DNA of 64,000 nucleotides from Acidimicrobium ferrooxidans. Its GTDB lineage: Bacteria > Actinomycetota > Geothermincolia > Fen-727 > Anoxymicrobiaceae. Location of the stretch: NCBI GenBank assembly GCA_020723485.1, contig DYIU01000001.1, positions 661,380 to 725,379 of the forward strand, in the 5' to 3' direction. Made by a program: the position numbers and the translations under genes. Below the pieces are notes generated by a model. That model saw only the letters and a list, made by a program, of their open reading frames with translations, was not told where the DNA came from and did not search any database. This document shows positions 20,951 through 24,218 of the stretch, in pieces (position 1 is the stretch's first letter; each line of letters begins with the position of its first letter).

Positions 20951-21077
20951 TTCTGTTCCGCCCACGACGGTTGCCGGCGCGCCGGTCGGCGGTGGGGCAC
21001 ATCGACGCGCGGCGGTGCAAGCGCGGCGGCAAATCCATTACAATTCACTGAGAAGCGCGACATACCGGAGGCGCATG

Positions 21078-21263
21078 ATGTGTGAATCGAACATCTACCT
21101 GAGGGACGACGAGGGAGACCGACTGGTCATGGAGGACGCCGTGATGGTCGAGACCGAGGGCGGCCGCATAAGCGTCACGGATATCCTCGGCGAGAAGAAG
21201 GAGTTCGAGGGCACCCTCGAGGAGATAACCTTCCTGGACCACCGCATCGTCATCCGGGTCTGA
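21078..21263 (+). CDS. CooT-family nickel-binding-like small protein
   Basis: 'MCESNIYLRDDEGDRLVMEDAVMVETEGGRISVTDILGEKKEFEGTLEEITFLDHRIVI' resembles CooT. Confidence 0.75.
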   Translation: MCESNIYLRDDEGDRLVMEDAVMVETEGGRISVTDILGEKKEFEGTLEEITFLDHRIVIRV

Positions 21264-21275
21264 AGAAGGCTCGCG

Positions 21276-22700
21276 GTGGGTTCGGGGTTCCGGTTCTTCA
21301 GGGAAGACCTCTGCGACCGCTGCGGCGTTTGCTTCGAGCGCTGCCCGGTGCTCGAGCTTCCCCCCGAGGAAGCGAAGCGGCAGATCGAGATACTCATCAG
21401 CGGCGATGCGGGCGCCTCCTTGGTGCTCCGGCGCTGCGTAACCTGCAACATCTGCGAGTTCGCCTGCCCGCAGCGCGCGAACCCTTACGGCCTCATCCTC
21501 GAACGCCACAATGAAGCCCTCGAGGACCGCGGCCTGCCCTACATAGCCAGGTTCATCTTCCCGAACGAGCGCGAGAACATGTGGACCTCCACCCGGGTGC
21601 TGATGGACGATGAAGAACTCGCGCTCCTTCGTTCCTGGGAGGACAACCTCAACAACCCGAGGAAGGAAGTCCTGCTCACCGGCTTCTACAACAACCTGGT
21701 GCCGTTCATCGCCGGGGCATCGCTCCTCGAGGAGCTCAAGCCGGCAATCGTCGGCAGCGACATGATGTTCGGGATGGGCGAGGACGCCTACAGGATCGGT
21801 TTCTTCGAGGAGGCTGAAAGGCTGGGCCGGCTCGCCGGTCGCAGATTCTCGGAGATGGGCGTGGAGAAGATGTACTGCTTCATGGTCGTGGAGGCCTCCA
21901 TGTTCACCGACGTGCTGCCGAGGAAGTTCGGCGTCGACTTCGACTTCGAGGTCGAACTGCTGGACAGCTGGATACTCGACCGGCTGAAGAGCGGGAAGAT
22001 CGAGGTCAGGGAGCAGCTCGACATGAAGGTCGCCGTCCACGACAACTGCTGCGGCAGGTACATGGACGGGACACTGCCCGGCGCAACCCGCGAGATAGTG
22101 AAGCTTACCGGCTGCGAGGTCGTCGAGATGCGGCACTGCGGCGAGCGCGCTCTCTGCTGCGGTTGGGCCGGGACCGTTCCAACTCTTTTCGGGCCGACAT
22201 CGAGCAACCCCCTGCATACCCTGCTCAACCTGCTGCAGGGCCTGTACCTCAGGCAGCAGGAGGCCGAGGCGACGGGAGCCGACGCCGTGGTCGTACCCTG
22301 TCCCGGCTGCTACGTGTTCCTGTCGATGATAAAGGTCCTGACCGACGGCAGGGTGGACGTGTACCTCCCGATAGAACTGGTGCAGATGGCAGCCGGGGAG
22401 ACTCCAGCGCACAGAAACGAGGAAAGGGCCTGGGACATCCTCGCAGTCACCAGCAACCTCGTTCTCAAGTGGATATTCTCACCAAAGCGGTTCTTCCCAG
22501 GACCTGTTGACATCGACATGCCGCTCCCCGAAGCAAGGGCGGGCGACGCCGCCCGCATAAAGCTGTTCGCCAGGCTGTATCACAGCGCCATTGTGCAGAA
22601 CCGACTTACGAGGACCGCCATCGCCGCGGCCACCAGGGCCATCATAGCGGCCTACCGTGTATACCTCGAAACAGAGAAGCGCAGGCTGCTCCGCACTTGA
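21276..22700 (+). CDS. (Fe-S)-binding, CCG-domain heterodisulfide reductase-like protein
   Basis: 'CDRCGVCFERCPVLE', 'CVTCNICEFACPQR', CCG-like 'HDNCCGRYMDG', 'CGERALCCGWAG', 'CPGCYVF'. Confidence 0.85.
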   Translation: MGSGFRFFREDLCDRCGVCFERCPVLELPPEEAKRQIEILISGDAGASLVLRRCVTCNICEFACPQRANPYGLILERHNEALEDRGLPYIARFIFPNERENMWTSTRVLMDDEELALLRSWEDNLNNPRKEVLLTGFYNNLVPFIAGASLLEELKPAIVGSDMMFGMGEDAYRIGFFEEAERLGRLAGRRFSEMGVEKMYCFMVVEASMFTDVLPRKFGVDFDFEVELLDSWILDRLKSGKIEVREQLDMKVAVHDNCCGRYMDGTLPGATREIVKLTGCEVVEMRHCGERALCCGWAGTVPTLFGPTSSNPLHTLLNLLQGLYLRQQEAEATGADAVVVPCPGCYVFLSMIKVLTDGRVDVYLPIELVQMAAGETPAHRNEERAWDILAVTSNLVLKWIFSPKRFFPGPVDIDMPLPEARAGDAARIKLFARLYHSAIVQNRLTRTAIAAATRAIIAAYRVYLETEKRRLLRT

Positions 22701-22731
22701 TCCAGCCAATCAATTTCCCTGAGACAGCGCG

Positions 22732-23113
22732 CCGGTGGCAGGGTCCCCATCGCTGCAACGCCAACTGATTTCCACAAGAACCCATCCGTTGGTAGGGGTC
22801 CCCATCGCTGAAAGGCCAACTGATTCCCACAATCTTCAATCCGTTGGTAGGGGTCCCTGGCGTCAAACGTGCGTTGAATACCCACCACTCCACGCCGGGG
22901 GTAGCCAAGGATTGGCTGAACGATTCCCATATGCACCCATCCGGTGGTAGGGGTCCCCATCGCTGAACGCATGCAGAGAAAATGTAGTTCGCGATGGGGG
23001 TAGACGAGGGATTGGCCGACTAGTTCCCACAACCGCCCATCCGGTGGTAGGGGTCCCCATCGCTGAGCGCATGCAGAGAAAATGTAGTTCGCGATGGGGG
23101 TAGACGAGGAGCC
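22732..23113. repeat. Array of five related units (two ~54-55 bp, then units of 100 bp) carrying inverted repeats
   Basis: Core CCGGTGGTAGGGGTCCCCATCGCTGA starts at 22732, 22786, 22841, 22941, 23041; last three spaced exactly 100 bp; CCCCATCGC/GCGATGGGG arms in units 4 and 5. Confidence 0.9.
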
Positions 23114-23154
23114 TATGAAACACACGACAAACAACTTCCTCGTCGTTGGGGAGA

Positions 23155-23364
23155 GGACAACCGGGCCTTGGAACCGGGTCCCGCATGATGCGGCGTATCA
23201 GACCTTAATGCGGCAACTCTTGGGGATATTTGGATGGTCCAAATACTTTAACCCTGAGCTGTACCCGGTTGTCCGAACTTGGTACTGGCAACCAATTCTC
23301 CCGGCGACGCCGGGAGTCCCGGCCGCCTGTCGGATGAGAAGCGGTACCTCTGGGTACCATTTTT
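23155..23364 (+). ncRNA. Candidate structured noncoding RNA ending in an intrinsic-terminator-like hairpin
   Basis: 11-bp closing stem GGACAACCGGG (23155-23165)/CCCGGTTGTCC (23264-23274) enclosing CCGCATgATGCGG and TATTTGGA-tgg-TCCAAATA; then TTGGT/ACCAA, CTCCCGGC-gac-GCCGGGAG and GGTACC-tctg-GGTACC-ATTTTT. Confidence 0.5.
23343..23364 (+). terminator. Intrinsic-terminator-like hairpin
   Basis: GGTACC TCTG GGTACC ATTTTT. Confidence 0.55.
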
Positions 23365-23468
23365 ACCGGTGAACGGTCGATTATCAACGTAAATACCCAT
23401 TTGCGGGCAAAAACGGGTGTTAAACAGCATATTCAGTAGGTGAGCGGAAAAAATGAACAATAAGCAGG

Positions 23469-24218
23469 CTACATGTTCAATATCTTCTTGAGTTCCGAGC
23501 TCTGGCGTCGGCTCATCGGTATCTTGCTCTGCCCGGGGTCGTTCATGGTGAGCTCGTACGAGGAGGTGCCTATCCTGGTGATGGCTTTGACCTTCTGCAG
23601 GTTGACGATGTAACCCCGGTGGGCGCGGAAGAACTTGAGCGGGTCGAGCATCCGTTCGAGTTCAGCAAGGGTATGGTTGGTCAGGAACCGGTCGTTATCG
23701 GTATGCAGGTACGTGTACTCGCGCTGGATGTTGATGAAGTTTATGTCGTCCACGTTGACGAGGTAGATCTTGTCGCCCTTCCTCGCCGGTATCTGCGGCC
23801 TCGTGGAGTCGCGATATGTCGTCCTCTCGGAGCGCTTCAACACCGCCTCGACCCGGGCCATCAATTCAAGCGCGCTGAAAGGCTTGGTGACATAGTCGTC
23901 GGCCCCGCCCCGCAGTCCCTGGACCTTGGACTTCTCGTCGGCGAGCGCGGTGAGCATTATTATCGGGAGGTCCCTGCTCTTGGGATCGTCGCGCAGACGG
24001 GTCAGCACCTCCCACCCATCGATCTTGGGCAGGAGCACGTCGAGCAGCACGAGGTCGGGATTGGCCTCCTTGACCTTCTTGAGGCCTTCCTCGCCGGTCG
24101 CCGCCGATTCCACGAGGTAACCCTCGAGCCTCAGGCTCTTCGTTATCATCTCGCTGATGAGAGGCTCGTCCTCTACAACGAGCACCCGCAGCTTCTCCCC
24201 GTTCATTTCACCTTTCAC
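23469..24218 (-). CDS. Response regulator with LytTR DNA-binding domain
   Basis: REC 'RVLVVEDEPLISEMITKSLRLEGY...DLVLLDVLLPKIDGWEVL...ALADEKSKV...DDYVTKPF'; LytTR 'DDINFINIQREYTYLHTDNDRFLTNHTLAELERML...FFRAHRGYIVNLQKVK'. Confidence 0.92.
   Translation of the reverse strand: MKGEMNGEKLRVLVVEDEPLISEMITKSLRLEGYLVESAATGEEGLKKVKEANPDLVLLDVLLPKIDGWEVLTRLRDDPKSRDLPIIMLTALADEKSKVQGLRGGADDYVTKPFSALELMARVEAVLKRSERTTYRDSTRPQIPARKGDKIYLVNVDDINFINIQREYTYLHTDNDRFLTNHTLAELERMLDPLKFFRAHRGYIVNLQKVKAITRIGTSSYELTMNDPGQSKIPMSRRQSSELKKILNM

Follow-up and report, generated by a model that had tools for sequence, protein, structure and literature searches.

A predicted structured small RNA, specific to one uncultured order of Actinomycetota, beside a LytTR response-regulator gene

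Several bacterial small RNAs (sRNAs) are encoded beside, or controlled by, response regulators of the LytTR class, among them RNAIII (AgrA), VR-RNA (VirR) and SpoZ (RgaR). The RNA polymerase-binding RNAs of the 6S and Ms1 type are stand-alone, housekeeping-like molecules of about 200 nt that fold into a long rod bearing a central bubble. At the spoZ sRNA promoter of C. difficile, the G residues reported as critical for RgaR lie at -72 and -51 (PMC10602386). Listeria LhrC is described, in passages of PMC9217828, PMC6435200 and PMC4132741, as multicopy and under two-component control, and part of a review (PMC12197685) deals with sRNAs carried by phages, whose partners are RNAs or proteins of the host. 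Here we describe a structured small RNA gene in a window of 64,000 nt (the whole stretch of DNA that was analysed). The gene is order-specific, lies on the minus strand and has been retained in almost all sampled members of an uncultured order of Actinomycetota, a conclusion that is well supported. The family is new to Rfam; its kind, the bacterial structured sRNA, is already known.

Conservation and structure of the RNA

A sequence-only reading of the window had proposed a discrete structured RNA from a series of inverted repeats. All of the repeats it named are present at the positions it gave, and most are formed by RNAfold, which folds the plus strand of 23145-23370 to -95.1 kcal/mol (z -2.98, 0 of 200 shuffles as low). 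Comparison with other genomes bears the proposal out. When the interval 22690-23480 was compared by blastn with 59 relatives, the RNA block at about 23148-23369 was found at 80-96% DNA identity in most genomes of the order, and genomes outside this one order gave no match. A covariance model of the P1 domain (see below) recovered the long form, which we call type A, in 11 of the 13 order genomes, with one marginal match outside the order but within the class. A sequence profile of the core loop, run over 397 genomes of the phylum, matched 12 of the 13 at E 4e-9 or better and gave three marginal matches outside the order. Weak matches in G012 and G029 (R1 model) and in G126, G330 and G022 (R2 model) were taken as chance. 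Genome G012, 86% complete, is the only one in the order with neither the long form nor the short form described below.

Conservation among the relatives begins at about 23148, leaving the adjacent repeat array outside the conserved unit. Past the 3' end of the RNA, at 22715-23113, is a REP-like tandem repeat block with two 100-nt copies that are 90% alike and two or three 55-nt copies. Related copies occur elsewhere in G000, the genome that contains the window, at C11:161827-162018 and C5:41429-41525, and apart from a short similar stretch in G005 the repeats are not conserved alongside the RNA. Two contigs (L014, G002:C84; L016, G008:C224) end within the RNA gene, for which strong hairpins or repeated copies are perhaps responsible.

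As the sequence-only reading had expected, Rfam 15 has no match in the window; permissive searches of 22690-23480 (E up to 10) returned only noise, and 12 homologous loci yielded nothing but tRNAs. ARAGORN found no tRNA or tmRNA in the window. The RNA is likewise not a tmRNA, RNase P RNA or 6S RNA as Rfam models them: G000 carries its RNase P RNA elsewhere (C11:34399-34766), as it does its tmRNA (C2:241526-241874), and the 6S model RF00013 matched none of the 13 order genomes, in a search that also missed the actinobacterial control and is therefore a weak test. No reverse transcriptase of the kind that accompanies a retron msr-msd was seen among the nearest genes scanned (LytTR regulator, CooT, Fe-S/CCG protein, DUF5666, RsbRD_N).

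The long form has the following parts, listed from its 5' end.

23148-23351, minus strand: type A (long form) of about 204 nt; supported by a block conserved in 11 genomes, by covariation and by a minus-strand fold z of -3.96
Ends, minus strand: 5' end near 23351; 3' end uncertain, may reach about 23124, most long forms having no U-tract after P1
23336-23351, minus strand: conserved 5' segment AGAGGUACCGCUUCUC, a small hairpin; 97% of alignment cells paired, few informative changes
23287-23327, minus strand: variable-tip hairpin GGCnnCCGG...CCGGUUGCC; 93% of cells paired, missing in G009
23264-23274, minus strand: P1 5' arm GGACAACCGGG, pairing with 23155-23165; all cells paired, both sides changed in six pairs
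23252-23261, minus strand: P3 5' arm CAGCUC-n-GGG, potential partner 23214-23225, part of the invariant loop; confined to the long form
23236-23242, minus strand: P2 5' arm UUGGACC, of a stem common to long and short forms; shuffled-partner test
23209-23230, minus strand: nearly invariant 22-nt loop AAUAUCCCCAAGAGUUGCCGCA, common to types A and B; 20 aligned sequences, including two viral contigs
23198-23204, minus strand: P2 3' arm GGUCUGA; shuffled-partner test
23181-23193, minus strand: P4 hairpin CCGCAUgAUGCGG; three of five pairs changed on both sides
23155-23165, minus strand: P1 3' arm CCCGGUUGUCC; same evidence as the 5' arm

Covariation supports this structure. In total, 10 of its pairs show changes on both sides; shuffles give 2.2, none of 500 reached the observed count, and the signal is lost when the pairing partners are slid. 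Its backbone is the long-range closing stem GGACAACCGGG/CCCGGTTGTCC that the sequence-only reading had picked out: P1 comprises 12 pairs, six of them with compensatory changes, and closes a domain that holds P4 and P3 with its apical hairpin. The small stem TTGGT/ACCAA (23279-23295), also named there, is absent from the conserved structure, in which ACCAA sits in an arm of the variable-tip hairpin; the pairs kept in that hairpin differ on one side only (G-C/G-U, A-U/G-U). For P2, pairing with the stem's own 3' arm outperforms pairing with shuffled ones: over 13 sequences 3 of 5000 shuffles did equally well, and over the nine short forms alone 82 of 5000. All cells of P3 are paired with almost no variation, many of its pairs being invariant and hence uninformative. 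The type A core in general hardly varies and so provides no test of its own structure, and since the comparison within the order covers 13 genomes, the support for P2 and P3 comes from a small number of independent changes. Formed together, P2 and P3 would make a pseudoknot; the two stems may coexist or may be alternatives.

Strand, promoter and regulator gene

The RNA is predicted to be transcribed from the minus strand. This is well supported by four lines of evidence, namely fold z-scores, an excess of G-U pairs, the only sigma-70-like site, and the z-scores and -10-like boxes of the short forms. Over the identical span 23145-23354 the fold z is -3.96 on the minus strand versus -1.36 on the plus, and the homologues show the same trend, although in G009 the fold beats shuffles on neither strand. 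Of the non-Watson-Crick cells in the consensus structure for the minus strand, 54 are G-U and 3 A-C, numbers that would swap on the plus strand; this count leans to the minus strand, for which the structure used was predicted, and a plus-strand alignment folded independently also gave A-C cells in P1. RNAalifold gives -47.5 for the minus-strand alignment (A5) versus -33.8 for the plus-strand one (A1). Eight of the nine short forms have the lower z on the minus strand, with means of about -2.0 there versus about -0.4 on the plus.

The sequence-only reading had instead proposed a plus-strand RNA ending in its own intrinsic terminator. The plus strand of 23145-23370 does fold below shuffles, and a terminator-like match at 23343-23358 is followed by a T-run, but on that strand A-C mismatches take the place of G-U pairs, the matched span folds with the weaker z, and the promoter lies opposite. 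Nor is the proposed terminator, GGTACC-TCTG-GGTACC-ATTTTT, a conserved element: its palindrome is a local feature of which relatives keep only the left half GCGGTACCTC, and ATTTTT is the reverse complement of the minus-strand -10 box. We regard a plus-strand RNA as very improbable. The original proposal is thus partly supported, correct as to a new structured RNA and incorrect as to its strand and terminator.

The region upstream of the RNA contains these elements.

23359-23364, minus strand: -10 box AAAAAT; spaced 17 nt from the -35 box; most relatives have an nAnAAT-like box, G007 and G008 GATAAT
23382-23387, minus strand: -35 box TTGATA; the only sigma-70-like site in 22900-23500
23419-23427, minus strand: upstream direct repeat 2 CTGTTTAAC, candidate LytTR operator; position compared with RgaR/spoZ
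23439-23447, minus strand: upstream direct repeat 1 CCGCTCACC; its start lies 20 nt from that of repeat 2 in most type A loci, by eye
23469-24218, minus strand: LytTR response-regulator gene, directly upstream and in the same direction; PF00072 4e-30, PF04397 4e-27

Among the type A loci, the ten that include the promoter region all have TTGAnn at about this position, and after it each carries the conserved 5' segment as GAGGUACCGCUUCUC or with slight differences. The LytTR gene is the neighbour of the RNA in all type A loci on contigs that extend far enough, except in G008. Where a long-form locus has the gene, about 290-325 nt separate its stop codon from the RNA's far end. Between gene and RNA are a hairpin at the regulator's end and the two direct repeats, whose consensus, read by eye, is CCGCTCAnC and CTnTTCAnC, with a spacing of 20 nt at most loci. 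If the 5' end is at 23351, the G of repeat 2 falls at -74 and that of a third, poorer motif at -53. We propose that the RNA promoter is probably under the control of the adjacent regulator. Such control would not be obligatory, because the RNA and its promoter are retained in G008, where regulator and repeats are gone from the locus, and because the upstream repeats do not match in G011. In G006 (99% complete) the orthologous regulator is followed directly by a convergent cooT; this genome has no long RNA and carries one short form elsewhere. On the minus strand beyond the long form, the loci that were read show no more than the 3' end of a gene that converges on it and encodes an Fe-S protein or CooT. 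A small gene of the CooT family (PF10133) lies at 21015-21263 in the window and is found near the locus in several relatives.

Short forms and viral copies

The loop AAUAUCCCCAAGAGUUGCCGCA also occurs in short forms, at seven cellular sites in five genomes (two each in G001 and G003, one each in G004, G006 and G011) and on two viral contigs. The usual order is P1, P2, loop, P2, P1 and then CCCCU, and most short forms have a -10-like box just 5' of P1 on the minus strand. Variation in the loop is slight: G006 has CAUG for CAAG, the short form of G011 has ACAU for AUAU, and the ends differ a little. One viral contig encodes a terminase small subunit, an HNH endonuclease and a ParB-like protein; the other has genes for an SbcC-like protein and for replication initiation. 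Searches of phage and plasmid record collections gave no match. That G006 has only a short form suggests that the loop is the working part of the RNA.

Each cellular short form has a different gene context. One of those in G001 (L022) lies near integrases. At L019:4175-4706 a Phd/YefM antitoxin gene follows the short form by about 100 nt, and the next frame looks RelE-like; at L024:3314-3963 the G006 short form lies within a cluster of four tRNA genes; and at L021:5581-6060 a response-regulator receiver gene directly precedes the short form in the same direction, as the LytTR gene does for the long form. A motif TATCAGA, considered as shared near the short forms, proved to consist mostly of their -10-like boxes read in reverse complement. 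An exact 19-mer match in Corynebacterium gottingense (L055) was also set aside, since 264 Gb should contain about two such matches by chance and the flanks showed no structure in common.

Possible function and comparison with known systems

We propose that the locus encodes a stand-alone sRNA that acts in trans. Transcription would start from the sigma-70-type promoter at 23387-23359, with the LytTR regulator as its probable controller; P1 and P2 would hold out the nearly invariant loop, which would bind one conserved partner in the cell. P3 could, in the long form, cover part of the loop, so that its presentation could be switched, and the short forms on phages and mobile DNA, exposing the same loop, would compete for or use the same partner. 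As a whole we give this reading a probability of about 0.5. As to the partner, a long antisense target is unlikely because G000 has no near-complementary site elsewhere: outside the RNA gene it holds no site with up to three mismatches to the 22-nt loop and none with up to two to its 16-nt core. The three-mismatch site in G011 (L045) is what chance would give. The near-constancy of the loop favours a protein or another structured molecule as the partner. It is possible, and we suggest it tentatively, that the loop is the site of an unrecognised order-specific RNA-binding protein or complex, in a private analogue of 6S- or CsrB-type control, and that viruses and mobile elements carry minimal loops to hijack or titrate it.

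The gene might instead encode a C-rich base-pairing sRNA like RsaE/RoxS, masking the Shine-Dalgarno sequences of several mRNAs through short seeds. Unpaired motifs of the UCCC type are indeed present, as AUCCCC in the loop and CUCCCC directly after P1, with UCCCC at both places in both forms, and the adjoining LytTR regulator recalls RNAIII, VR-RNA and SpoZ; near-invariance over 22 nt, however, exceeds what short seeds need, and G000 offers no extended complementary site, which makes this alternative worth keeping in view though rather unlikely. A cis-acting leader, for example a riboswitch of the downstream gene, would suit the few short forms that stand about 40-100 nt before a co-directional gene (the antitoxin of L019, a methyltransferase in L020). 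It is hard to reconcile with a long form set between the regulator's stop codon and the 3' end of a convergent gene, or with short-form neighbours that differ at every locus, and we consider it highly unlikely. A 92-aa open frame does cross the conserved block in G000, and the block could in principle encode a short protein (ATGCGGCAACTC..., MRQLLGIFGWS...). Yet third codon positions are no less invariant than first and second ones. In G010 and G011 the frame is shifted by 1-nt indels, G009 has lost the start codon and G011 has a different one, and the short forms leave the frame, so that coding is the least credible explanation, with next to no probability.

The RNA represents a structured family absent from Rfam, with its own promoter, a covarying scaffold and a loop common to chromosomal and viral copies; since the loop is shared in this way, its partner should be directly fishable. 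In being stand-alone, housekeeping-like and about 200 nt long the RNA resembles the 6S and Ms1 type, whose single rod differs from its branched fold with two hairpins inside P1. Like RNAIII, VR-RNA and SpoZ it is encoded beside or under a LytTR-class response regulator; it differs from them in phylum, sequence and structure, occurs order-wide, adjoins the regulator gene and has upstream repeats 1 and 2 with a period of 20 nt. The upstream G residues at about -74 and -53, compared with -72 and -51 at spoZ (PMC10602386), are a resemblance between candidate repeats and a known operator, not a test of it. With RsaE/RoxS and Listeria LhrC, as portrayed in those passages (PMC9217828, PMC6435200, PMC4132741), the RNA shares unpaired segments of the UCCCC type, and it is set apart by the 22-nt nearly invariant loop, the P1/P2 architecture and the lack of an Rfam match. 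The short forms on two viral contigs, finally, carry the host loop, and in this they are akin to the phage-borne sRNAs treated in that part of the review (PMC12197685).
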